From NCBI RefSeq assembly GCF_016526145.1, contig NZ_JADDUE010000013.1, positions 1 to 64,000 on the forward strand: a stretch of DNA of 64,000 nucleotides, written 5' to 3'. Below the pieces are notes generated by a model. It searched no databases. It worked only from the letters and a program-made list of their open reading frames with translations, and was not told where the DNA came from. Within the stretch, counting starts at the first letter, position 1. Every line of letters begins with the position of its first letter. The translations under genes were made by a program, and so were the position numbers. Of the stretch, positions 49,051 through 59,530 are shown piece by piece. This DNA is from Saccharopolyspora galaxeae. Lineage in GTDB: Bacteria; Actinomycetota; Actinomycetes; Mycobacteriales; Pseudonocardiaceae.

Positions 49051-49567
49051 CCCGCTCGATGCCGCGGCCGGCGCGATCGCCGGCACCGGCGTCGTCGAAC
49101 AGCGGGATTCCGGGCGGGACGCGAAGTCGTCGTGCAGCGGCAAAGCGTCAACTTTCCATTATGGACTCAAATTCCCGTTTCGGGAATGCTCAGGGTCGGC
49201 GGGCCGGTCGCATCGACAGTGAGCCGCGAGTACTCGATCGCCGGATTTCGCGATTCGGCCCACACCGCCCGCAAGTCCTGCTAGCTTCGAATCGCCGTTG
49301 AAGTTGGATCGTCGGCGTGCGTGAGCGGGCTGGGGGCCGACACGACGAACGTTCGTCGTCGGGAGACGAAATCCGCCGATGCTTGCTCGATTCGCCGGCA
49401 TTGCGGATCCCGACTGCAACCGAGTGCACCGCCACCGGCAGCTCGGGGGAATGCGAGAGCTGTACCGACGCGCGGGGATTCCCCGGTACCGCGACCTTTC
49501 GCCTGCCATTCCAGTGCCGCCCAGCACAACCCGGGTTCACGACTCGATTCCCGAGGGGGACAACGCA
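49051..49567. other. 517-base gene-free region after arr
   Basis: No gene seen on either strand. A perfect hairpin GCCGGCG-CGAT-CGCCGGC at 49067-49084, 17 bases after the arr stop, may end that transcript although there is no T-tract. The right half should carry the promoter of the ThDP enzyme, whose GTG at 49568 follows AGGGGG. An in-frame upstream extension (from 49379) lacks coding bias. Confidence 0.45.
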
Positions 49568-51484
49568 GTGACCGAAGCCAAGCACGAGCAGCACACCCAG
49601 TGGCTCCCGATCGAGCAGGAGAACAATCCCCGGCTCGGCCGGGACATCATCTTCGACTACCTCAAGACCGCCGGTGTCGACCGGCTCTACGGGGTGCCCG
49701 GCACCAACGAGATCCCGCTCATCGACGGCACCGACGTTCCGGAGCACCGCGTCGAGTACGTGCCCTGCCTGCACGAGAACATCGCCCTCGGCGCCGCCAT
49801 GGGGTACGCGCGGCACCGGCGGACCGAGACCGGCGACGTCGTGCCCGGTGCGGTCGGATTGCACGTCACGCCGGGAGTCGGGCACGCGATCGGGAACCTC
49901 TTCAACGCGTTCCGGTCGCACATCCCGCTGGTGGTGCTGTGCGGACAGCAGAACAGCAATCTCCTCATCCAGGAACCGCTGTTGGGCTCGGACCTGGCTC
50001 AAGTCGCCAAGCAGTACACCAAGTGGGCCTACGAGGTGCGCGGCCCGAACGAGATCGGCATGGCCATGCAGCGCGCGCTGAAAACCGCGCTCACACCTCC
50101 GATGGGGCCGGTCTTCCTGTCGATCCCGTGGGAGTTCCTGGTGCAGCAGGGAGCCGATCCGCAGCGCGGCCGGTTCACCAGGATAGCTGGGGAATTCCAC
50201 GCACAGCCGTCCGAATTGGACAAGGCCGCGGATCTCCTCGCCAAGTCGCGGTATCCGGTAATCGTCGCCGGTGACGGTGTCGGCGATGCCGAGGCGTGGC
50301 ACGAACTACAGGACTTGGCCACGGCCATCGGCGCACCGGTGTACAACGAGCAGTCCAGCAGCCACCTCAACTATCCCCACCACCTGGCACATGCGCGCGG
50401 CGAGCTGCCCAGCGTGCAGCAACAAGTCCGGCAAGTTCTCGGGCGCAAAGATCAGGACACGGTGCGGGACACCGTGTTCTTGTGCGGATTCAACGCGCAG
50501 GCGCAGCTCGTCATCTACAACTGGGATGACGGCCCCTTGATCCCCGGGCACCTGACCCAGGTCTACCTGCACAACGATCCGTGGCAGATCGGCAAGAACC
50601 ACTACGGGGCGGCGGCGCCGCTGGGCGACATCAAGGACGCCTTGCCCAAGATCACCGCGGCGATCAGGGCCCATCCCGGGTACGACAAGGGGCACGTGGA
50701 CGGCCTGAACGAGCAGCTGGCGCAGGAAGACCGGTCGCTCGCGCAGGATTTCCAGCAGCGGGCGAAGGAGGTCCCGGACACCGGCATCGCTCCCGCGATG
50801 CTCGTGAACGCGCTCAACACGGCGCTGCGCGACCACTCGGTCCGCCTGATCAACGAAGCGTGTTCGGACACCGCGGATTTCCAGCAGGGTTTGTCCTTCG
50901 ATTCGCCGAGCAGCTACATGTCGTCCGAAGGAGGCTCGCTGGGCTACTCGATGCCAGCCAGTCTCGGTGTCGCCGACGCGGTGATCCGCTCCGGTGCGGG
51001 CGCGGCGGAGCCGGGCGGCAAGCCGCCCATCGTGGTCAACGCGGTCGGAGACGGATCGGCACTGTTCTACCTGAACACGTGGTGGACCGCGGTCAAGTTC
51101 CAGCTCCCGGTGCTGTACCTGATCACGAACAACAAGCAGTACAAGACGCTCCGGGTCGGCTTGGACGTGTTGCGGAAGTCCTACGACTGGGATCCCAGCG
51201 GCAAGACCGAGTACCTCCATCTCGACGGAGAGCCCCAGCTGTCGTTCGTGGATCTGGCGGCGGGTTTCGGTGTCGACGGCCGCCTGATCGAATCCGCGGG
51301 CGACCTCGAGCAGGCGCTGGCCGAGGCGGTCCGCGAGGTCGGCGCGGGCAAGCCCTACGTGGTGGAAGTCCTCACCGACCCGGCCCTTCCGGACATGGGC
51401 GAGGTCGACATCAGCACGAACGGCCGTCTCAGCGCGAAGGCGGACGTCGCCGAACGGGCCATTTGGAACTTCGGCCCCGCTTGA
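49568..51484 (+). CDS. Thiamine-diphosphate-dependent enzyme (acetolactate synthase/benzoylformate decarboxylase family)
   Basis: 638 residues from the GTG at 49568. Catalytic Glu in PCLHENIALGAAMGYARH, the PYR/central/PP domain order, and the ThDP motif NAVGDGSALFYLNTWWTAVK ending in YLITNNKQYKTL. It is longer than typical family members because of an N-terminal extension and insertions in the central domain (PLIPGHLTQVYLHNDPWQIG). Substrate unknown; benzoylformate or a related 2-oxoacid is possible. Monocistronic, ending at a strong bidirectional hairpin. Confidence 0.85.
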   Translation: MTEAKHEQHTQWLPIEQENNPRLGRDIIFDYLKTAGVDRLYGVPGTNEIPLIDGTDVPEHRVEYVPCLHENIALGAAMGYARHRRTETGDVVPGAVGLHVTPGVGHAIGNLFNAFRSHIPLVVLCGQQNSNLLIQEPLLGSDLAQVAKQYTKWAYEVRGPNEIGMAMQRALKTALTPPMGPVFLSIPWEFLVQQGADPQRGRFTRIAGEFHAQPSELDKAADLLAKSRYPVIVAGDGVGDAEAWHELQDLATAIGAPVYNEQSSSHLNYPHHLAHARGELPSVQQQVRQVLGRKDQDTVRDTVFLCGFNAQAQLVIYNWDDGPLIPGHLTQVYLHNDPWQIGKNHYGAAAPLGDIKDALPKITAAIRAHPGYDKGHVDGLNEQLAQEDRSLAQDFQQRAKEVPDTGIAPAMLVNALNTALRDHSVRLINEACSDTADFQQGLSFDSPSSYMSSEGGSLGYSMPASLGVADAVIRSGAGAAEPGGKPPIVVNAVGDGSALFYLNTWWTAVKFQLPVLYLITNNKQYKTLRVGLDVLRKSYDWDPSGKTEYLHLDGEPQLSFVDLAAGFGVDGRLIESAGDLEQALAEAVREVGAGKPYVVEVLTDPALPDMGEVDISTNGRLSAKADVAERAIWNFGPA

Positions 51485-51612: not shown

Positions 51613-52128
51613 TCACGGCACGTAGAAGGGGTGCGTGAGCTCGTCCCGGGCAGCGATCAGATCGGTGGCGTCCGCGCGCCCTCGCAGAGCTTCCCGAACG
51701 GCTGCGCGCATCGCGGTGCGGGTCGCCAGGCGCACCGCGTCTCCGCGTTCGGCCGCCGGATCGAGCCAGACCGCGGCGAAGACCAGCGAGTCCTGATCCT
51801 CGGCGAGCAGTCCGTCGGCGACGGAGTCGAGCACGCCTTGCGCGATGCCGAGCTGGCAGGCGCCCGAGACCAGGTTCACGTGCTCATCGGTGGGCGATGT
51901 GGTCTTGTTCAGCATGATCGTCGGTGGGCGCACGGTCCGGTACGACGGCTGGTCCTCGCCGACGCACACGAGGATCGGGGTGAACCCTTCCGCGGGGCGC
52001 GCGAGCGTGCCCGTCATGATCGCTGCGGTGGGTGATCCGCGTTCGGCGAGCACCACGTTGAGGTGCACGCCGTCCGGGTTGGTTCCGCCCCACGCCTGGG
52101 AGCTGCGGCCGTCGATTCCGGTGCTCAT
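51613..52128 (-). CDS. fae: Formaldehyde-activating enzyme (Fae) family protein
   Basis: 171 residues. Fae fold motifs in order: DGVHLNVVLAERGSPTAAIM with the conserved His, LARPAEGFTPILVCVGEDQP, RPPTIMLNKTTSPTDEHVN, GACQLGIAQGVLDSVADGLL, VFAAVWLDPAAERGD and the C-terminal ARDELTHPF. Fae condenses formaldehyde with tetrahydromethanopterin in methylotrophs and archaea; actinobacteria generally lack that cofactor, so this copy may use another carrier or scavenge formaldehyde. Last gene of a leftward unit with a Zn-ADH and a short IclR protein. Confidence 0.82.
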   Translation of the reverse strand: MSTGIDGRSSQAWGGTNPDGVHLNVVLAERGSPTAAIMTGTLARPAEGFTPILVCVGEDQPSYRTVRPPTIMLNKTTSPTDEHVNLVSGACQLGIAQGVLDSVADGLLAEDQDSLVFAAVWLDPAAERGDAVRLATRTAMRAAVREALRGRADATDLIAARDELTHPFYVP

Positions 52129-52209: not shown

Positions 52210-52494
52210 TCAGTTCGCCGGCGGCCCCTCGCCACCGTCGGGTTCGTCGTAGGTGGCCATTCGCGGGCCGACGACGAACCGTCCGTTCCCGGCTCTGCGG
52301 ACCACGCCGAGCTCGCACATCGTCGCCAGCAGCCGGTGCACCGAGCTCTTCGGCGCGCCGACTCGCTGCACGACCTCGCTCAACCGCAGACCTCGCTGCC
52401 CGTCGGCGAGCACGTCGAGCACCGCGAAGGCCTGCGCGACGGCGGGGCTGCGGTTGCCTTCCCCTCGCTCGCCCGGCGCCGGATGCGCGCTCAT
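52210..52494 (-). CDS. IclR-type DNA-binding domain without effector domain
   Basis: 94 residues. The IclR winged helix is complete (VAQAFAVLDVLADGQRGLRL, SEVVQRVGAPKSSVHRLLAT, RAGNGRFVVGPRMATYDEP) but a TGA follows at once where ~170 residues of ligand-binding domain are expected. The start overlaps the ADH stop by 4 bp. It may still bind DNA constitutively; a palindrome upstream of the ADH is the obvious target. Confidence 0.82.
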   Translation of the reverse strand: MSAHPAPGERGEGNRSPAVAQAFAVLDVLADGQRGLRLSEVVQRVGAPKSSVHRLLATMCELGVVRRAGNGRFVVGPRMATYDEPDGGEGPPAN

Positions 52495-53606
52495 CGGCCG
52501 GCGAGTTCCGCATCGACGAGCACGACGCCGCGCCGGCTCGCACCCGTGGCCAGATCGGCGAACGCGGTGTTGATCTCGTCGAAGCGGTAGGTCTTCGAGA
52601 TCAGCTCGTCGATCGGCAGCTTGCCGGTGCCGAACTGGTTCAGCAGCTTCGGGATGTCATGGGCCGGGCGGCTGGAGCCGTAGAGGCTGCCGGTCAGGTA
52701 CTTCTCCTCGCGCACGAACCGCGCGGCGGGAACGCTCGCGTAGGCCGTGGCTGCGGGAACACCGACGCACACCACGCTGCCGCCCGGTGCGGTGGCGTCG
52801 AACGCCTGCTCCAGCAAGCCTTCCTTGCCGACCGCGTCGATGGTCACGTCAGCGCCGCCGTTGAGCCCGCGCACCTCGGCGACCACGTCGTCCTCCGGCG
52901 CCAGCACGCGCGTTGCTCCGAACAGCACGGCGCCCGCGCGCTTGTCCGGGTGCGGCTCGACGACCACGATCTCGTCCGCCCCGGACAGCCGCGCTGCCAT
53001 GATCGCGCTGAGTCCGACCCCGCCCGCGCCGTAGACGAGCACCACGTCGCCCGGCGCCACCCGGGCGCGGTTCACCACGGCGCCGTAACCGGTGAGCACT
53101 CCGCAGCCGACGAGTGCGGCGACCGGAAATGGGATCGTTGCGGGGATTTTGATGGCACTGGCGGCAGGAACCACCGTGTTCTCGGAGAACGTGGACAGGA
53201 ACGAGTAGTGGTGGACGTCGCGCTCGCCGTCGTGCATCCGGACGGTCCCGTCCAGCAAGGTGCCCGCCAGCAGCGCGGGCGCGCTGGCCGTGCACAGCAC
53301 CGGGCGGCCCGCTTGGCAGTAGCGGCACCGGCCGCAGCTGGGCAGCCAGCACAGCGCGACGTGGTCACCGACCTCGACGTGCCCGACTCCGGCACCGACC
53401 GCGGTGACGACGCCGGCCCCCTCGTGGCCGAGGACGGCGGGCAGCGGCGACGGGATGCGCCCGCTGATCGTGTGCGCGTCGCTGGCGCACACGCCGGTCG
53501 CGGCGATCCGCACCGCGACTTCTCCCGGGCGGGGCTCGTCCAGGCGGAGCGTGCGGAATGCGAGCGGGGCGGCGGTCTCTTCGAGGACCGCGGCACGAGT
53601 TTCCAT
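52491..53606 (-). CDS. Zinc-dependent alcohol dehydrogenase, class III-like / NDMA-type
   Basis: 371 residues from the ATG at 53606 (GAGGAG upstream). Catalytic Zn ligands in GVCASDAHTISG and GHEGAGVVTAVG, structural Zn quartet CGRCRYCQAGRPVLC, NAD fold VLVYGAGGVGLSAIMAA. The SFLSTFSENTVVPAASAIKI region and overall spacing resemble class III and mycofactocin-linked NDMA-dependent ADHs. Paired with a Fae-like protein, formaldehyde or an alcohol giving it is a plausible substrate; whether its NAD is tightly bound cannot be judged by eye. Confidence 0.88.
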   Translation of the reverse strand: METRAAVLEETAAPLAFRTLRLDEPRPGEVAVRIAATGVCASDAHTISGRIPSPLPAVLGHEGAGVVTAVGAGVGHVEVGDHVALCWLPSCGRCRYCQAGRPVLCTASAPALLAGTLLDGTVRMHDGERDVHHYSFLSTFSENTVVPAASAIKIPATIPFPVAALVGCGVLTGYGAVVNRARVAPGDVVLVYGAGGVGLSAIMAARLSGADEIVVVEPHPDKRAGAVLFGATRVLAPEDDVVAEVRGLNGGADVTIDAVGKEGLLEQAFDATAPGGSVVCVGVPAATAYASVPAARFVREEKYLTGSLYGSSRPAHDIPKLLNQFGTGKLPIDELISKTYRFDEINTAFADLATGASRRGVVLVDAELAGR

Positions 53607-53656
53607 TCGAGCAACTCCTCGGGAATCGTTGAGACGGGGCCACTCGAACGACATTC

Positions 53657-53672
53657 GTTCCACATGTGGAAC
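53657..53672. promoter_or_regulatory. Perfect 16-bp palindrome upstream of the Zn-ADH
   Basis: GTTCCACATGTGGAAC, self-complementary over its full length, 51 bases before the ADH start on the leftward strand. IclR-family operators are often such TTCCA/TGGAA dyads, and an IclR-type DNA-binding protein is encoded two frames downstream in the same operon. Probable operator. Confidence 0.7.
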
Positions 53673-53864: not shown

Positions 53865-53894
53865 TTGACGCCCGCGTCCGGCCGCGGCTACGCT
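53865..53894 (+). promoter_or_regulatory. Promoter for the polyol operon
   Basis: TTGACG at 53865-53870 and TACGCT at 53889-53894 with an 18-bp spacer. It points right toward the MFS gene and places the start of transcription near 53901-53903, about 35 bases before the terminator stem. Nothing else in this gap points rightward. Confidence 0.5.
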
Positions 53895-53936
53895 CCCGCG
53901 AACAGCACAACTGAAAACCACGTTACTAAGAGACCC

Positions 53937-53986
53937 AGAGAACAGTAACCCCATTCGAAGCACGGGGGATGCTGTTCTCTTTTTTT
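53937..53986 (+). terminator. Leader terminator (attenuator) ahead of the MFS gene
   Basis: AGAGAACAG at 53937-53945 pairs perfectly with CTGTTCTCT at 53972-53980, with an inner CCCC/GGGG stem, then seven T at 53980-53986: a textbook intrinsic terminator. No rightward gene lies upstream, so it cuts the leader of the operon starting at 54022. An alternative stem, GTTAC (53922-53926) with GTAAC (53945-53949), overlaps its left arm and could act against it. The operon ends with a GlpP antiterminator gene. Confidence 0.85.
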
Positions 53987-54021
53987 GTGCCCGGCAGGGC
54001 CCCACAACGAGGTGGAGGCAG

Positions 54022-55302
54022 GTGAGCGATGTGCGGAGACGGCTGAGTTATCTGCTGCTGTGCACGTCCGGCGGGGTCATATTCCAGGTGGCCTACATCA
54101 GATTCGTTTTCCTGGAACCGACCTATCAGGCGCTCGGACTCAGCGGACCGGAATACGGCGACATCATGTCGGTGTTCGGCGCGGTCGCCGCGGTGATGTA
54201 CTTCGCGGGTGGCTGGTTCGCCGACCGGTTCGCCCCGCGTGCGCTCGTCGCGACGGCGCTGACGATCACCGGGCTCGCCGACCTGGCGCTGATCGCCGTG
54301 CCCGGCTACGCCACCGCGCTGCTCGCGCACGTCGTCATGGCCTTCGCCGGGATGGCGCTCTATTGGCCTGCGCTGGTGCGCGCGATCGGCTCGTTCGGTT
54401 CCTCCGCGCAGCAAGGCAGGTTGTTCGGCTTCCTGGAGGCGATCCGCGGCATCACATCGACGGTGATCAGCGGGATCGCCGCGTTGCTGATCGGGACCGC
54501 GCTCGCCCCGGCAACAGGGGTGCGCGCGCTGATCGGGACCTATGGCGTGCTGTGCCTGGTGCTGGCGGGCCTGATCTGGCTCGCGCTGCGCGGCCCGGCC
54601 GACGGCATCGCGAGCGGCGAACGTTCGGCCCTGTCGGTGCGCGATCTGGCCGCGGCCGCGCGGAACAAGTACACCTGGCTGCTCGGCGGATCGATCATGC
54701 TGATGTACTGCTTCTACACCACGCTGGGCTACTTCTCCCCGCTGCTGCAGCACGAATTCGGCGTCACGGCCGCCATGATCGGCGTGCTCGGCGTCGTGCG
54801 CAGCTACGTGTTCCAGTTCGTCGCGGGGCCGCTCGGCGGGTTCTGCGTGGACAAGGTGACCCGGTCCACTCCCCGCTTCCTGCGGCTGGCGTTCGTCGCA
54901 GCAGCGGTGTGCGTGGTCGTGCTGCTGTTCCTGCCGCGCGAATCAGGGTTGAAGTGGGTCGCGGTGGCGCTGATGTTCGCGCTGTCGCTCGTGGTCTTCG
55001 CCAGCCGCGGGGTGTACTGGGCGAGCATGACCGAGGCCCGCATCCCCGAGCACCAGCGGGGCGGCGTGATCGGCCTCGCCTCGGGACTGGCCTACCTGCC
55101 GGATGCGTTCCTGCCCGGTCTCGTCGCCAGGTGGATCGGCGACCCCGGCACGGGCACGGCCGCGCAAGGCGGCTACGGCATCTTGTTCGGCGTGCTGGCC
55201 GGTGCCGCCGTCCTGGGGATCGCGCTGACCACGCTGACGCTGCGCGTGCAGCGACATGAGCCGGACGCCGGACCGCAGCCGCGGCCGGCCGCGGTGCGCT
55301 GA
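54022..55302 (+). CDS. MFS transporter (polyol-type operon)
   Basis: 426 residues from the GTG at 54022 (GGAGG-type site upstream). Twelve membrane segments by eye, with the A-like loop GGWFADRFAPRALVAT and matching loop GGFCVDKVTRSTPRF in the second half. Closest in feel to sugar phosphate/nitrate-type and polyol MFS uptake proteins. First gene of a tight operon with SDR, FAD oxidase and kinase; likely imports their substrate. Confidence 0.85.
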   Translation: MSDVRRRLSYLLLCTSGGVIFQVAYIRFVFLEPTYQALGLSGPEYGDIMSVFGAVAAVMYFAGGWFADRFAPRALVATALTITGLADLALIAVPGYATALLAHVVMAFAGMALYWPALVRAIGSFGSSAQQGRLFGFLEAIRGITSTVISGIAALLIGTALAPATGVRALIGTYGVLCLVLAGLIWLALRGPADGIASGERSALSVRDLAAAARNKYTWLLGGSIMLMYCFYTTLGYFSPLLQHEFGVTAAMIGVLGVVRSYVFQFVAGPLGGFCVDKVTRSTPRFLRLAFVAAAVCVVVLLFLPRESGLKWVAVALMFALSLVVFASRGVYWASMTEARIPEHQRGGVIGLASGLAYLPDAFLPGLVARWIGDPGTGTAAQGGYGILFGVLAGAAVLGIALTTLTLRVQRHEPDAGPQPRPAAVR

Positions 55303-55334
55303 CCGACCCGGCTCCTGCACGGAAAGGATTCTCG

Positions 55335-56111
55335 TTGGACATCCAGGACTTCTCCCTCGACCTGTTCTCGCTGCGCGGCCGCAACGCCATCGTCACGGGC
55401 GGCAACACGGGACTCGGCCGGGCGTTCACGGTTGCGCTGGCGAAAGCGGGCGCGAACGTCTTCGCGCCCACCGTCGCAGACGACGGCGGCACGACCCGGC
55501 AACTGGTCGAGGAAACGGGTGCTCGTCTGGAGACGCAGGAGATCGACCTCACCGGGCCGGGTGCTCCCGAGCGGGTCGTGGAGTCCTGTGTGGACGCATT
55601 CGGCTCGGTCGACGTACTGGTCAACTCGGCAGGCATCGCCGAGCTCGCGCCGGTCGCGGAGTTCGGCAGGCAGCACTGGGACCCGATGATCGCGCTGAAC
55701 CTGACCGCGCCGTTCGAACTCGGCTGGTGCGCCGGGCGCCGCATGGCGCAGCAGGGCCGCGGCAAGATCATCAACATCGCGTCGCTGTTCTCGTTCCTCG
55801 GCGGCCAAAGCTCACCGGCCTACGCCGCTACCAAGCACGGCATCGTCGGCTTCACCAGGGCCTACTGCGACGAGCTCGGCGCGCACAACGTCCAGTGCAA
55901 CGCGATCGCACCCGGATACTTCGCCACCCCGCTCACCGAGCGGACCCGGGCCGACCCCGCGCAGAACCAGCGGGTGCTCGAGCACATCCCCGCCGCACGT
56001 TGGGGCGAACTGGGCGACTTGATGGGCGCGACGGTCTTCCTCGCCAGCCGCGCCTCCGACTACGTCAACGGGCACGTCCTGAGCGTGGACGGCGGCTACC
56101 TCACCCGATGA
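55335..56111 (+). CDS. SDR oxidoreductase (KduD/gluconate dehydrogenase-like)
   Basis: 258 residues from a TTG at 55335 preceded by GGAAAGGA. Cofactor motif IVTGGNTGLGRAFTVALA, NSAG motif VLVNSAGIAEL, catalytic Ser in IINIASLFSFL and YAATK at the active site. The N-terminal SLDLFSLRGRNAIVTGG is typical of KduD-like sugar/polyol dehydrogenases. Ends in an ATGA overlap with the FAD oxidase. Confidence 0.88.
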   Translation: MDIQDFSLDLFSLRGRNAIVTGGNTGLGRAFTVALAKAGANVFAPTVADDGGTTRQLVEETGARLETQEIDLTGPGAPERVVESCVDAFGSVDVLVNSAGIAELAPVAEFGRQHWDPMIALNLTAPFELGWCAGRRMAQQGRGKIINIASLFSFLGGQSSPAYAATKHGIVGFTRAYCDELGAHNVQCNAIAPGYFATPLTERTRADPAQNQRVLEHIPAARWGELGDLMGATVFLASRASDYVNGHVLSVDGGYLTR

Positions 56112-57586
56112 CCCGAAGCACCGAGAGCACGGAGACCGAAGTGGACAACAACGCCATCATCGACGAGCTGCGCGAGATCGCGGGCCCGCAGCGGGTGGAC
56201 ACCGACGAGCAGCTGCTGCGGGAGGCCAGCGTCGACCGCTTCAAGAAGTACACCGCGGTCCACGGCATCTACGACGGGCCGCTACCGCTGGCGATCGTGC
56301 GCGCGGGCAGCGCCGAGCAGGTGGCCGCGGTCCTGGCGTTCGCGAACGAGCACGGCGTCAACATCGTCGCCCGCACCGGTCGCACCGGAACCGAGGGCGG
56401 ACTCGAAACCAGTCACGAGCGGACCGTCGTGCTGGACGGGTCCGGCATGGCCGAGATCGTGCGCATCGATCCGGTCGACATGCAGGCCACCGCCCAGTGC
56501 GGCACTCCGCTGCAAGTGTTGGAGCAGCGCGTGCGCGAGTTCGGGCTCACCACCGGGCACTCGCCGCAATCCAAGCCGCAGGCGCAGCTGGGCGGGCTGG
56601 TCGCCACCCGCTCGATCGGCCAGTTCTCCACGCTCTACGGCGGGATCGAGGACATGGTCGTCGGCCTGGAAGCGGTGTTCCCGGACGGCTCGATCAGCCG
56701 GATCAAGAACGTGCCGCGCCGCGCCGCGGGACCGGACATCCGCCACGTCGTGATCGGCAACGAGGGCGCGCTGTGCTTCGTCACCGAGGTCACGGTGAAG
56801 TTGTTCGCGCACCGGCCGGAGAACGACCACTTCCACGGCTACCTGCTCGACGACGTTCGCACCGGGATCGAGATCCTGCGCGAGATCGTGACCGCCGGTT
56901 ACCGGCCTTCGGTGGCGCGGGTCTACTCCGAGCAGGACGCCGCCCAGCACTTCGCGCACTTCGCCGACGGCAAGTGCGTCGCGGTCTTCCTCGCCGAAGG
57001 ACCGGCCGGGCTCGCCGAGGCCACCAGCGCGGAGATCGACCGGGTGGTGCGCGAGCACGCGCACGAACGCGTCGAGCCGGAATTGATCCGCGAGTGGTTC
57101 GACGACCTGAACTGGGGCCCGGACAAGATCCTCGCCGAACAGCGGACCATGCTCGCCGAACGGCGACTCGGCTACACCACGGAGGTATCCGCCAACTGGT
57201 CGGTGATCGGCGACATCTACGAGGCCGTCATCGCCCGGATCACCGCGGAATTCCCGCGCTTCGCGGACATCACGCTGCTCGGCGGGCACTCCTCGCACAG
57301 CTACCAGACCGGCACCAACATGTACTTCGTCTACGACTACCGCATCAATTGCGAGCCGCGGGAGGAGATCATCGAGTACCACGTCCCGCTCAACGCGATC
57401 ATCGTCGAGGAGACGCTGGCCCGCGGCGGATCGATGGTGCACCACCACGGCATCGGGAAGTACCGCGCGCCGTGGACCGAGCAGGAGCACGGCAGTGCCT
57501 ACCCGGTGCTGCGCAAGCTCAAGGACGCCTACGACCCCAACGGAATCATGAACCCGGGCACCATCTTCCCCACCGGAGACCGGTGA
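56108..57586 (+). CDS. FAD-linked oxidase (GlcD/alkyl-DHAP-synthase-like)
   Basis: 492 residues from the ATG at 56108. FAD-PCMH domain: VAAVLAFANEHGVNIVARTG, GLTTGHSPQSKPQAQLGGLV, ATRSIGQFSTLYGGIEDMVV, and the C-terminal cap ends MVHHHGIGKYRAPW and YDPNGIMNPGTIFP with conserved His. Comparable enzymes oxidise 2-hydroxyacids or act on alkyl-DHAP. In an operon with an FGGY kinase and a GlpP regulator it may oxidise a phosphorylated polyol, filling the role GlpD has for glycerol-3-phosphate. Confidence 0.87.
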   Translation: MTRSTESTETEVDNNAIIDELREIAGPQRVDTDEQLLREASVDRFKKYTAVHGIYDGPLPLAIVRAGSAEQVAAVLAFANEHGVNIVARTGRTGTEGGLETSHERTVVLDGSGMAEIVRIDPVDMQATAQCGTPLQVLEQRVREFGLTTGHSPQSKPQAQLGGLVATRSIGQFSTLYGGIEDMVVGLEAVFPDGSISRIKNVPRRAAGPDIRHVVIGNEGALCFVTEVTVKLFAHRPENDHFHGYLLDDVRTGIEILREIVTAGYRPSVARVYSEQDAAQHFAHFADGKCVAVFLAEGPAGLAEATSAEIDRVVREHAHERVEPELIREWFDDLNWGPDKILAEQRTMLAERRLGYTTEVSANWSVIGDIYEAVIARITAEFPRFADITLLGGHSSHSYQTGTNMYFVYDYRINCEPREEIIEYHVPLNAIIVEETLARGGSMVHHHGIGKYRAPWTEQEHGSAYPVLRKLKDAYDPNGIMNPGTIFPTGDR

Positions 57587-58950
57587 TGGCGGACTACCTG
57601 CTCGGCATCGACAACGGCTCCCAGAGCACCAAGGTCGCCGTGTTCGACACGCGCGGCACAGTGCACGCCCGGGCCCGCGTTCCGTTGCGCCCCAACGATT
57701 CCCCGCGCCCCGGTGTCGTCGAGCATCCGGACGACGACCTGTGGGATTCCATCGGTGCCGCGACCCGCGCGGCGCTGCGCGACTTCGCAGGCGGTCCGGA
57801 GCAGATCCGCGGCGTCGGGATCTGCACGATCCGGTTCTGCCGCGCCATGTTGCGCGCCGACGGCACGCTCGCCCAGCCGGTGCTGAGTTGGATGGACGAA
57901 CGCGTTTCGCGGCCGTACCAGCACGTGAATCCGGACGTCCGCTACGTCACCACGTCTTCCGGCTACATCACCGCGCGGATGACCGGGCGGTTCCGCGACA
58001 CGGCGGCGAACTACCAGGGCGTGTGGCCGATCGACACCGACAGCTGGGACTGGGTCGCAGCACCCGACATCCCGCGGGAGATGCTGTTCGAGCTCGTGCA
58101 GCCCGGCGAGAAGCTCGGCACCGTCACCGCGCGAGCAGCCGCGCACACCGGGCTGCCGGAAGGTCTGCCGGTGTTCGCCACGGCCAACGACAAGGCGGCC
58201 GAGGCGCTCGGCAGCGGCCTCGCCGACGACCGCAGCGTGCTGCTGTCGATGGGCACCTACATCGCCGGCATGACCACCGGAACGCGCAACGTTGCCGACG
58301 CCGAGGCGTTCTGGACCAACTTCGCCTGCCGCCCGCGCGAATACCTCTACGAGAGCCGCGGCATCCGCCGCGGCATGTGGACGGTCAGCTGGCTGCGCGA
58401 CCTGCTCGGCTCCGAAGATTGGCTCAACGAAGGTGCGGCCACCGTACCGGCCGGTTCCGACGGGCTGATCGCGGTGCTGGACTGGCTGGCCCCGGTCGAC
58501 GCGCCGTTCCGCAAGGGCGCGTTCCTCGGATTCGACGGCAGGCAGGGACCGTTCCACATGTACCGGGCGGTGCTCGAAGCGATCGCGCTGACCATGTGCG
58601 CCAACGCGGGCGACATGGCAGGCGAACTGGGCGCGGAGTTCGAGCGAGTGCTGGTCTCCGGCGGTGGCGCCGGATCCGACGTGCTCGTGCAGATCGTCGC
58701 CGACGCGTTCGACCGGCCCGCGCGGCGTGCGCAAGGCGGGGCGGAGCTCGGCTCGGCGATCTGCGCAGGCGTCGGGCTCGGCCTCTTCGCCGGTTTCGAC
58801 GAGGCGGTGGCGGCGATGGTCCGCAATGGCAGCGAGTTCGTTCCCGACCCGGAGGCGCACGAGCAGTACCGGCGGCTGCGCGAGGTGTACCGCGCACTGC
58901 CCGGCCACACCGACCCGCTGTTCGCGTGGCTGGCCACCGCCGGGCGGTGA
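57586..58950 (+). CDS. FGGY-family carbohydrate kinase
   Basis: 454 residues; ATG overlaps the oxidase stop (TGATG). FGGY N-terminal motif YLLGIDNGSQSTKVAVFD, substrate region WMDERVSRPYQHVN and the C-terminal ATP-binding LVSGGGAGSDVLVQIVADAF and GGAELGSAICAGVGLGLFAG. The family phosphorylates glycerol, xylulose, erythritol and similar polyols/ketoses; a unique assignment is not possible. Stops 7 bp before the convergent glpP. Confidence 0.9.
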   Translation: MADYLLGIDNGSQSTKVAVFDTRGTVHARARVPLRPNDSPRPGVVEHPDDDLWDSIGAATRAALRDFAGGPEQIRGVGICTIRFCRAMLRADGTLAQPVLSWMDERVSRPYQHVNPDVRYVTTSSGYITARMTGRFRDTAANYQGVWPIDTDSWDWVAAPDIPREMLFELVQPGEKLGTVTARAAAHTGLPEGLPVFATANDKAAEALGSGLADDRSVLLSMGTYIAGMTTGTRNVADAEAFWTNFACRPREYLYESRGIRRGMWTVSWLRDLLGSEDWLNEGAATVPAGSDGLIAVLDWLAPVDAPFRKGAFLGFDGRQGPFHMYRAVLEAIALTMCANAGDMAGELGAEFERVLVSGGGAGSDVLVQIVADAFDRPARRAQGGAELGSAICAGVGLGLFAGFDEAVAAMVRNGSEFVPDPEAHEQYRRLREVYRALPGHTDPLFAWLATAGR

Positions 58951-58957
58951 AACCCGC

Positions 58958-59530
58958 CTACATCGACCAAACGTCCACATTGGACGAGGCGATGGCGGTC
59001 GCGCCCGCGCTCAGCGCGGCCAGCACGTCGTTCTTGTCGCAGACCAGCCCGCCCGCGATGATCGGCACGTCGGTGTCGTTGCGCAGCCACTCGATCACCC
59101 GCGGCACGCACCCGGGCAGGATTTCGATGTAGTCCGGCCGCGAGATCGCCAACTGCTTGCCGAGGTTGTGGTACGAGAACGAGTCGACGAGGAAGAACCG
59201 GTGCACCGCAAGCAATCCGCGCTTCCGGGCCGCCTTGACGATCGACGCCTTGCTGCTGAGCACCCCGTCCGCCCGGGTGCGTTCGCCCACGAACTCCACG
59301 GCGACGTCGCGGCTTTCCAGCCCCTCGACCATGTCCACGTTCACCAGCACGACCTTCCCGGCCGCGCGCAGCCGGTCGACCAGGTCCGGCAGCGTCAAGA
59401 TCGAGCCGCAGAGCAGGAAGACCACGCCTGGTTCCGAGTCGATGACCGAGCGCGCCCCGGCCTCGTCCTTCACGCTCGCCACGACCGGGGAATCCAACAG
59501 GACATCACGCACCGGCGCACTATGGCACAC
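58958..59530 (-). CDS. glpP: GlpP-type glycerol-3-phosphate-responsive antiterminator
   Basis: 190 residues. Highly characteristic of GlpP, a TIM-barrel RNA-binding antiterminator: VVFLLCGSILTLPDLVDRLR, VLVNVDMVEGLESRDVAVEF, ADGVLSSKASIVKAARKRGL, RFFLVDSFSYHNLGKQLA, DYIEILPGCVPRVIEWLR and IIAGGLVCDKNDVLAALSAG followed by SSN. In Bacillus GlpP binds G3P and prevents termination in glp leaders. Here it converges with the polyol operon whose leader holds an intrinsic terminator, so cognate regulation is very likely. Confidence 0.92.
   Translation of the reverse strand: MCHSAPVRDVLLDSPVVASVKDEAGARSVIDSEPGVVFLLCGSILTLPDLVDRLRAAGKVVLVNVDMVEGLESRDVAVEFVGERTRADGVLSSKASIVKAARKRGLLAVHRFFLVDSFSYHNLGKQLAISRPDYIEILPGCVPRVIEWLRNDTDVPIIAGGLVCDKNDVLAALSAGATAIASSNVDVWSM

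Follow-up and report, generated by a model that had tools for sequence, protein, structure and literature searches.

A conserved tandem-GAGA leader element points to GlpP-type antitermination of a catabolic operon in Saccharopolyspora galaxeae and of its ygc counterpart in Escherichia coli

Introduction

Antitermination by GlpP is known mainly from the glycerol genes of Bacillus; two studies of the glpD leader by Glatz, from 1996 and 1998, may hold part of the canonical motif. The present work concerns a leader element, and the operon behind it, in a 64,000-nucleotide stretch of Saccharopolyspora galaxeae DNA (contig NZ_JADDUE010000013.1, positions 1–64,000 of the forward strand; the whole stretch is hereafter the window). 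The organism is a soil actinomycete, and the operon, probably for a sugar or polyol, encodes a major facilitator superfamily (MFS) transporter, a short-chain dehydrogenase/reductase (SDR), an FAD-linked oxidase and an FGGY-family carbohydrate kinase, and a convergent gene encodes a GlpP-family protein. According to excerpts of PMC9604022, three B. subtilis promoters share a GlpP binding site together with a terminator in the 5′ untranslated region, and induction is lost upon deletion of glpP; an excerpt of PMC7430163 has the antiterminator bound by GlpP carrying glycerol-3-phosphate (G3P).

We put at roughly 85% the probability that the window operon is OFF by default and is governed by GlpP/YgcP-dependent antitermination. 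The first-pass annotation of this DNA had proposed a leader terminator with a competing hairpin as the mechanism, a proposal that the anatomy of the leader, the covariation of both helices and their conservation bear out; comparison (co-occurrence, shared layout) likewise supports its suggestion of GlpP-type control over genes other than glp. At the level of sequence comparison, GlpP control of the leader is strongly supported; G3P as the ligand and a polyol as the substrate, the other two elements of that proposal, would be candidates.

Results

A terminator and a competing hairpin share one strand of the leader

The leader opens with a promoter-like pair of sigma70 type (TTGACG-N18-TACGCT, 53865–53894, plus strand) and continues with a 5′ box, CAACTGAAAA (53908–53917, plus strand), which lies 5′ of the hairpins and whose consensus, CAA-S-Y-K-AA-Y-A, comes from comparison of leaders. 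Pairing and covariation define a predicted antiterminator hairpin (53922–53949, plus strand), in which GTTACT (53922–53927) faces AGTAAC (53944–53949) around a tandem GAGA loop, AAGAGACCCAGAGAAC. The intrinsic terminator (53937–53986, plus strand; fold and covariation) has an 11-bp outer stem, a 4-bp inner stem and a T7 tail: its arms AGAGAACAG (53937–53945) and CTGTTCTCT (53972–53980) are perfectly complementary and gain two extra pairs, the inner stem is CCCC/GGGG, and seven T stand at 53980–53986, the first of them also within the stem. Positions 53944–53947 are common to the antiterminator and the 5′ arm of the terminator. The promoter-like pair, the perfect 9-bp stem with its C4/G4 inner stem and seven T, and an overlapping GTTAC/GTAAC stem had all been claimed before, and each can be read directly; the outer stem in fact reaches 11 bp, and the alternative stem, GTTACT/AGTAAC, covaries.

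Folding of the window leader (101 nt) returns the 11-bp and 4-bp stems at −29.6 kcal/mol (z −2.92; 3 of 200 shuffles equally stable), with −22.8 kcal/mol for the terminator and −3.1 for the antiterminator alone. Across 17 leaders of this type, hereafter ygc-type after the E. coli genes described below, the antiterminator alone ranges from −1.4 to −8.8 kcal/mol and the terminator from −18.8 to −31.0; the terminator being far the stronger, the default should be OFF and a protein would be needed to favour the antiterminator. A generic promoter/terminator scan of the plus strand lists neither the leader promoter nor the terminator (its rule permits loops of 3–8, and the inner loop here is 12). The stretch that separates the promoter from the terminator stem is free of ATG, GTG and TTG, hence no ordinary leader peptide is expected.

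The upstream signals recur. Of 21 actinobacterial loci (the window and 20 others), 18 have TTGAC(A/G)-N16-19-TANNNT 5′ of the element, and these 18 are among just 20 occurrences in the 679,276 strand-bases of the 21 loci; the pattern is missing upstream of the element in Leucobacter L060, G196 (L065) and Streptomyces clavuligerus L074. With at most one mismatch, the 5′ box is found in 16/21 actinobacterial leaders and in 6/7 Bacillota glp leaders, against a background of 0.5% of random 57-nt windows of these actinobacterial loci, the consensus having been derived from the same leaders.

Conservation and covariation of the element

GlpP homology located 17 actinobacterial loci besides the window (16 without the near-identical L068), and four genomes added later brought the number to 20 without L068. 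Represented among the 17 are Prauserella, Saccharopolyspora, Amycolatopsis, Leucobacter and a plasmid of Streptomyces clavuligerus, besides other genomes. SDR, FAD and kinase genes adjoin GlpP in 17/17 loci and an MFS relative only in some. A hairpin stands 5′ of the first gene of the operon in all 17, and in 20/20 once the later genomes are included, even as that first gene varies between MFS, SDR and, in Leucobacter, FAD. The leader consensus is GGTTACT-AGAGAC-Nn-AGAGAACAGTAACCC...GGGG-ACTGTTCTCTTTTTTT; a box CAACYGAAWA or a near form, about 11–12 bases before GAGA where counted and so spaced much as in the Bacillota glp leaders described below, is present in the window, Prauserella and Amycolatopsis leaders, and in Saccharopolyspora-group leaders the box lies farther upstream, ahead of an extra hairpin. 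That a leader with promoter-like pair, terminator and competing hairpin precedes the operon is confirmed, chance being excluded mainly because the element is kept in 20 other actinobacterial loci, in E. coli and in Enterococcus.

By eye, the extra hairpin, of variable sequence (for example CTCGCGG/CCGCGAG), lies directly 5′ of the antiterminator in L056, L057, L059, L060–L067 and L113, and is not seen in the window, Prauserella (L053–L055) or Amycolatopsis (L058). Leader, enzymes and GlpP are also kept in S. aridisoli (L056), which has no MFS match and about 320 bases between element and SDR, and in S. endophytica (L061), where the MFS match is in two pieces in different frames.

The final MAFFT alignment holds 25 leaders (24 distinct), the right arm of Enterococcus being slightly out of register. 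In the antiterminator helix 94.0% of cells are paired and 5/7 pairs have changed on both sides; in the terminator helix the figures are 96.3% and 4/10. The covariation scores are 0.303 for the antiterminator (0.178 in shuffles, at most 0.118 when slid) and 0.193 for the terminator (0.132 and at most 0.087), the shuffle comparisons not being probabilities since shuffles ignore relatedness; an earlier 20-row alignment gave the same picture. Columns 30–32 are part of both helices, and in leaders such as those of E. coli ygcW and Saccharopolyspora flava a change there is accompanied by changes in both partners; at columns 12/30/61 of alignment A2, U-A-U gives way to C-G-C in E. coli ygcW. RNAalifold, unaided, chooses the terminator helix. 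The aligned sequences contain, in short, two mutually exclusive predicted helices that both covary.

In the family sample, genomes with the element are those with window-type GlpP

A covariance model, R1, built from most of the leaders that it later recovered (the E. coli pair included), matches 15 of 200 genomes of the family, with one copy each, and these are exactly the 15 genomes with GlpP at E ≤ 1e-55. Among the same 200, no element is found in five genomes with GlpP of another subtype (E ~1e-40), in four with sub-cut-off part matches, or in the rest. A larger scan finds the element, again in single copy, in 20/390 genomes; five of these lie outside the first sample, and we count four as new because G774 probably repeats the training locus L061. 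In all four the element is just 5′ of the same cluster with GlpP, and no GlpP is present in five element-free relatives checked. Window-type GlpP accompanies the element in every family genome with the element where both were looked for.

Two sets of R1 matches were set aside. In a class-wide sample of 394 genomes R1 matches only the own genome and G1121 (26.4 bits), the latter taken as chance-like: its GlpP is a sub-cut-off part match (19.8 bits), with no cluster genes nearby. Opposite-strand matches in L109–L111 overlap true elements and read as the reverse complement of the terminator.

At the scale of the phylum, 28/396 genomes have a GlpP match with the window GlpP as query, and beyond the own genome all of these are distant, identity reaching 49% over 36 residues and elsewhere not exceeding 36%; there is no second window-type GlpP in this sample, which makes the system patchy.

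The operon and its counterparts in E. coli and Enterococcus

The first gene of the operon (54022–55302, plus strand) encodes a YqcE-like MFS transporter (PF07690, E 5.5e-26; 27% to the E. coli MFS protein adjoining ygcW). After a gap of 32 bases comes an SDR by Pfam (55335–56111, plus strand), YgcW-like by identity (60%) and of KduD type, yet under the KduD cut-off. The FAD-linked oxidase/dehydrogenase (56108–57586, plus strand; FAD_binding_4 and FAD-oxidase_C), YgcU-like (63%), overlaps it by 4 bases, and the FGGY carbohydrate kinase (57586–58950, plus strand; Pfam FGGY kinase), YgcE-like (45%), overlaps the FAD gene by 1 base. GlpP is convergent, 7 bases beyond the kinase stop (58958–59530, minus strand); it is of YgcP type (44% to E. 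coli YgcP; PF04309 G3P_antiterm, 193 bits against a cut-off of 27), is the sole match to PF04309 in its genome, and has no CAT RNA-binding, PRD or ANTAR domain in Pfam. Coordinates and Pfam agree with the earlier description of four tightly coupled genes plus a convergent GlpP. Equally sound was its designation of the oxidase as alkyl-dihydroxyacetonephosphate (alkyl-DHAP) synthase-like: these synthases are the best solved relatives (E 5e-41), and the HHHG motif is common to both. No gene for an electron-transfer flavoprotein (ETF)-like protein lies between MFS and GlpP in the window; such genes occur near the FAD enzyme in E. coli and Enterococcus gilvus.

The identities given above are to E. 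coli KE47, with gene names from MG1655, and the counterpart of the window operon is yqcE-ygcW-ygcU-ygcE-ygcP of E. coli K-12. In MG1655 two elements lie back to back within the 318-bp ygcW–yqcE gap: ATTACT-AGAGACCTGAGAAA-AGTAAT on the yqcE side and GTTACC-AGAGATAATGAGAAA-GGTAAC on the ygcW side. Each overlaps a terminator whose T-run numbers eight or nine (R1 scores 60.2 and 58.5 bits, both elements being in the R1 training set). Of 5426 complete E. coli genomes, 4998 have a match to 80% or more of this gap and 5055 to as much of the ygcP query. The element also precedes the MFS gene adjoining GlpP in Enterococcus gilvus and E. raffinosus; in the latter a second, weaker element (24.5 bits) follows GlpP, before the place of an SDR annotated in E. 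gilvus, where the matching stretch looks alike and is unreported by R1. The system is not peculiar to an actinomycete, a point that the first-pass annotation missed: the E. coli ygc cluster with its leader is a counterpart, and the RNA element occurs in three phyla.

For the E. coli gap, published excerpts report CRP binding to the ygcW–yqcE intergenic region in enterotoxigenic E. coli (ETEC; PMC4287617), a predicted CRP site (PMC1794230) and predicted promoters with H-NS (PMC3946193), and ygcU and ygcP are named in PMC8228696. In the open PMC literature we found no title or abstract opening on YgcP RNA targets or this leader, and a term search of two RNA-element papers (PMC2965389 and PMC2864571) gave no mention of glp or ygc.

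Relation to glp leaders and the identity of the ligand

The strict layout of the element (stem, GAGA..GAGA, stem, overlapping terminator) was scanned for in 21 other GlpP loci and in approximately dinucleotide-preserving shuffles. It occurs at 9 places, within 7/21 loci, against 0.35 expected, six of the nine (E. coli, a second strain repeating K-12, and Enterococcus) partly by construction because the layout was drawn from ygc-type leaders. The other three are the Cytobacillus glpF leader and places just before an Acetoanaerobium aquaporin gene and just before Paenibacillus glpP. Visual inspection and a less stringent scan show CAAGTTAATA or a one-mismatch form, then 8–13 bases, then GAGA, in the leaders of Listeria glpF and glpD, Cytobacillus glpD and Paenibacillus glpD; the second GAGA in these leaders sits at the 5′ arm of the terminator. 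Six Bacillota glp-type leaders, two each from Cytobacillus, Listeria and Paenibacillus, have a layout like that of the ygc leaders, and the 5′ box is absent at Acetoanaerobium glpF. The Cytobacillus glpD leader scores 16.4 bits with R1 (E 0.15), and the Cytobacillus glpF stretch, folded alone, forms the predicted short stem.

In an unrooted GlpP tree of 28 rows, the 14 ygc-type rows, from three phyla, fall on one side of a branch with support 98/95. All 14 ygc-type proteins have HR where the GlpP of Cytobacillus, Paenibacillus and Listeria has QR, the pair then being followed by DS-x-S-(F/Y); LPG and (G/S)GL loops, probably phosphate-binding, are kept in ygc-type and glp-linked GlpP alike. A separate GlpP branch marked by HR would fit a changed ligand.

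These comparisons bear on the alternative that survives best, namely that window GlpP reads G3P as in Bacillus and that the operon is an accessory glycerol pathway; it overlaps with the antitermination reading, which counts G3P among its candidate ligands. Membership of the GlpP family (PF04309) and the layout in common with glp leaders speak for it, but a true glycerol kinase (750 bits) is encoded elsewhere in the own genome, its gene lacking GAGA..GAGA over the preceding 1.5 kb, the single element of that genome stands before MFS-SDR-FAD-FGGY, the ygc-type GlpP forms its own branch, and the operon kinase falls under every curated FGGY cut-off listed, reaching 80 bits against 590 with the glycerol-kinase model. 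We regard a G3P-responsive accessory pathway as possible though rather unlikely. To the wider proposal we give an even chance: that the tandem-GAGA antiterminator is one ancient GlpP-read RNA family of Actinomycetota, Bacillota and Gammaproteobacteria, whose ygc branch switched from G3P to the phosphorylated product of the operon substrate. Much less likely is that the alkyl-DHAP-synthase-like enzyme, SDR and kinase degrade glyceryl ethers, with GlpP sensing an alkyl-glycerol phosphate.

The family also contains a second GlpP subtype without the tandem-GAGA element (L069–L073, in G185, G160, G173, G124 and G054). The window GlpP query matches only two of these five, at 30%; the neighbours are FAD relatives (29–30%) and zinc alcohol dehydrogenase (ADH) relatives (42–51%), with a distant FGGY kinase in 3/5, and a different target RNA or mechanism is one reading. 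In Klebsiella pneumoniae (L083, 6680–7205) a divergent GlpP (26%) adjoins genes for an FGGY kinase, an SDR, a hydroxyacid dehydrogenase and a phosphotransferase system, and a perfect hairpin, CCCTCAGAGAC/GTCTCTGAGGG, with a T-run precedes the aldolase gene upstream of GlpP. No relative turned up in one scan of IMG/VR with a GlpP alignment; a human-gut record classed as phage (L129) has GlpP, with no element within 13.5 kb.

Genes beside the operon

Upstream of the operon lie genes for a divergent zinc ADH (52491–53663, minus strand), whose nearest model, N,N-dimethyl-4-nitrosoaniline (NDMA)-dependent ADH, is matched below cut-off, and for a Fae-like protein (51613–52128, minus strand; PF08714). 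Relatives of the zinc ADH (68–86% identity) adjoin the operon in L058, L059, L062, L063, L064 and L110, and Fae-like relatives (56–59%) in L059, L062 and L064; the two may belong to the same pathway as the operon or serve formaldehyde handling. Farther off (49379–51484, plus strand) is a 701-residue thiamine-diphosphate enzyme related to benzoylformate decarboxylase, whose domain begins at about residue 87, implying an N-terminal extension or an over-called start.

Discussion

In the scheme that we infer, from GlpP binding and the sense of the switch to ligand and substrate, transcription would start at about 53900 from the leader promoter, and the nascent leader would by default fold into the strong terminator (53937–53986), stopping before the MFS gene. 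The ligand is most likely a small phosphate ester, for instance G3P or whatever the FGGY kinase of the operon produces; GlpP carrying it would bind the tandem-GAGA loop and stabilise the weak GTTACT/AGTAAC hairpin. Because that hairpin consumes the 5′ strand of the terminator, RNA polymerase would continue into the operon and transcribe the MFS, SDR, FAD oxidase and kinase genes.

Several observations weigh against this reading. R1 was trained on most of the leaders it found, so that the genomes it passes over, the single copy per genome and the four new genomes are all that is independent; 5 of the 20 above-cut-off GlpP genomes in the family sample have no element. Within the alignment, further pair types are no more numerous than in shuffles (167 and 179 of 500 reach the observed number), 9/24 sequences, the window among them, leave the outermost antiterminator pair open, and a change at column 32 in the Saccharopolyspora-group leaders SNFX, G120 and G101 keeps the antiterminator pair and breaks that of the terminator; Prauserella salsuginis has AAAGAT in place of AGAGAC. 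Farther afield, inspection by eye shows no 5′ box in the leaders of E. coli and Enterococcus, the strict scan has no match in 14/21 GlpP loci (Klebsiella, Cupriavidus, Burkholderia and Arthrobacter included), the region upstream of Fusobacterium glpF shows nothing of the kind, and the Cytobacillus glpD stretch, folded alone, does not form the predicted antiterminator. The 1.5-kb flanks of 27 distant actinobacterial GlpP loci (L026–L052) likewise hold no convincing element, a pattern match in L031 being taken as chance.

A constitutive terminator or fixed attenuator, independent of GlpP, is one alternative, the hairpin being strong enough to act alone; it is improbable nonetheless, as the competing helix covaries, the presence of the element tracks window-type GlpP genome by genome, and the upstream gene is divergent, so that only the leader itself would be left to terminate. 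Less probable again is a metabolite riboswitch, T-box, leader-peptide attenuator or ANTAR target that merely adjoins glpP. These share the same terminator/antiterminator logic, but Rfam gives no match at gathering thresholds across the window and only sub-threshold matches to unrelated families for the window leader and the E. coli region (SurA small RNA in the latter, 25.9 bits against a gathering threshold of 100, E 3.4e-5), with no above-threshold match in the Cytobacillus locus or the Listeria glp leaders; no start codon precedes the hairpin, the antiterminator is under 30 nt, and presence follows GlpP. A DNA operator, in which a repressor binds the inverted repeats and the RNA fold has no role, is the least credible: both arms are palindromic in DNA as well and CRP binds the same intergenic region in ETEC (excerpt of PMC4287617), yet in every aligned leader the hairpin is followed, in the sense direction, by a T-run, G-U pairs retained in both helices favour RNA over a DNA palindrome, the two overlapping helices vary in step, and the one window regulator examined in addition to GlpP, a GntR, does not recur beside the operon except for a 34% relative in L053, other regulators of the relatives not having been searched for.

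GlpP-dependent antitermination, as preferred here, would make a single RNA switch, whose helices covary and whose consensus can be defined, the link between GlpP proteins of three phyla, and would define an RNA element for which Rfam gave no match. E. coli K-12 gains predicted GlpP-type antitermination at two divergent leaders before genes annotated only as putative; its poorly understood ygc cluster becomes testable, compounds that induce the leader offering a direct route to the substrate. If the ygc branch has indeed changed its ligand, even E. coli K-12 would possess an inducible catabolic pathway, under RNA control, that is as yet undescribed. The switch might also serve as a portable regulator in actinomycetes and E. 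coli.

Among known systems, BglG, SacY and LicT belong to an unrelated protein family, GlpP having no PRD domain, and the loop of their ribonucleic antiterminator (RAT) hairpins differs from the tandem-GAGA one. The likeness lies in the principle, a short protein-bound hairpin that overlaps and prevents a leader terminator (excerpt of PMC7430163). ANTAR antitermination, for example by EutV (excerpt of PMC3369931), similarly places an RNA-binding antiterminator protein on leader RNA, the window GlpP being without an ANTAR domain. Nearer at hand, the B. subtilis system (glpD, glpFK, glpT) has in common with the window a GlpP-family protein and a leader terminator just 3′ of the promoter, and the glp leaders of Cytobacillus, Listeria and Paenibacillus add an upstream box and GAGA..GAGA overlapping the terminator; unlike in B. 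subtilis, the window element precedes MFS-SDR-FAD-FGGY rather than glpF, glpK, glpD, glpT or glpQ, the window-type antiterminator stem is longer, at 6–7 bp, and the GlpP is on a separate branch. A further close likeness is the ygc cluster of E. coli K-12 (ygcP, ygcQRS, ygcU, ygcW, yqcE, ygcE), which brings homologues of YgcW, YgcU, YgcE and YgcP together with the same leader element, present twice; it differs from the window in its divergent operons with a CRP site between them, in the flavoprotein genes ygcQ/ygcR near ygcU, and in its second transporter, YgcS.

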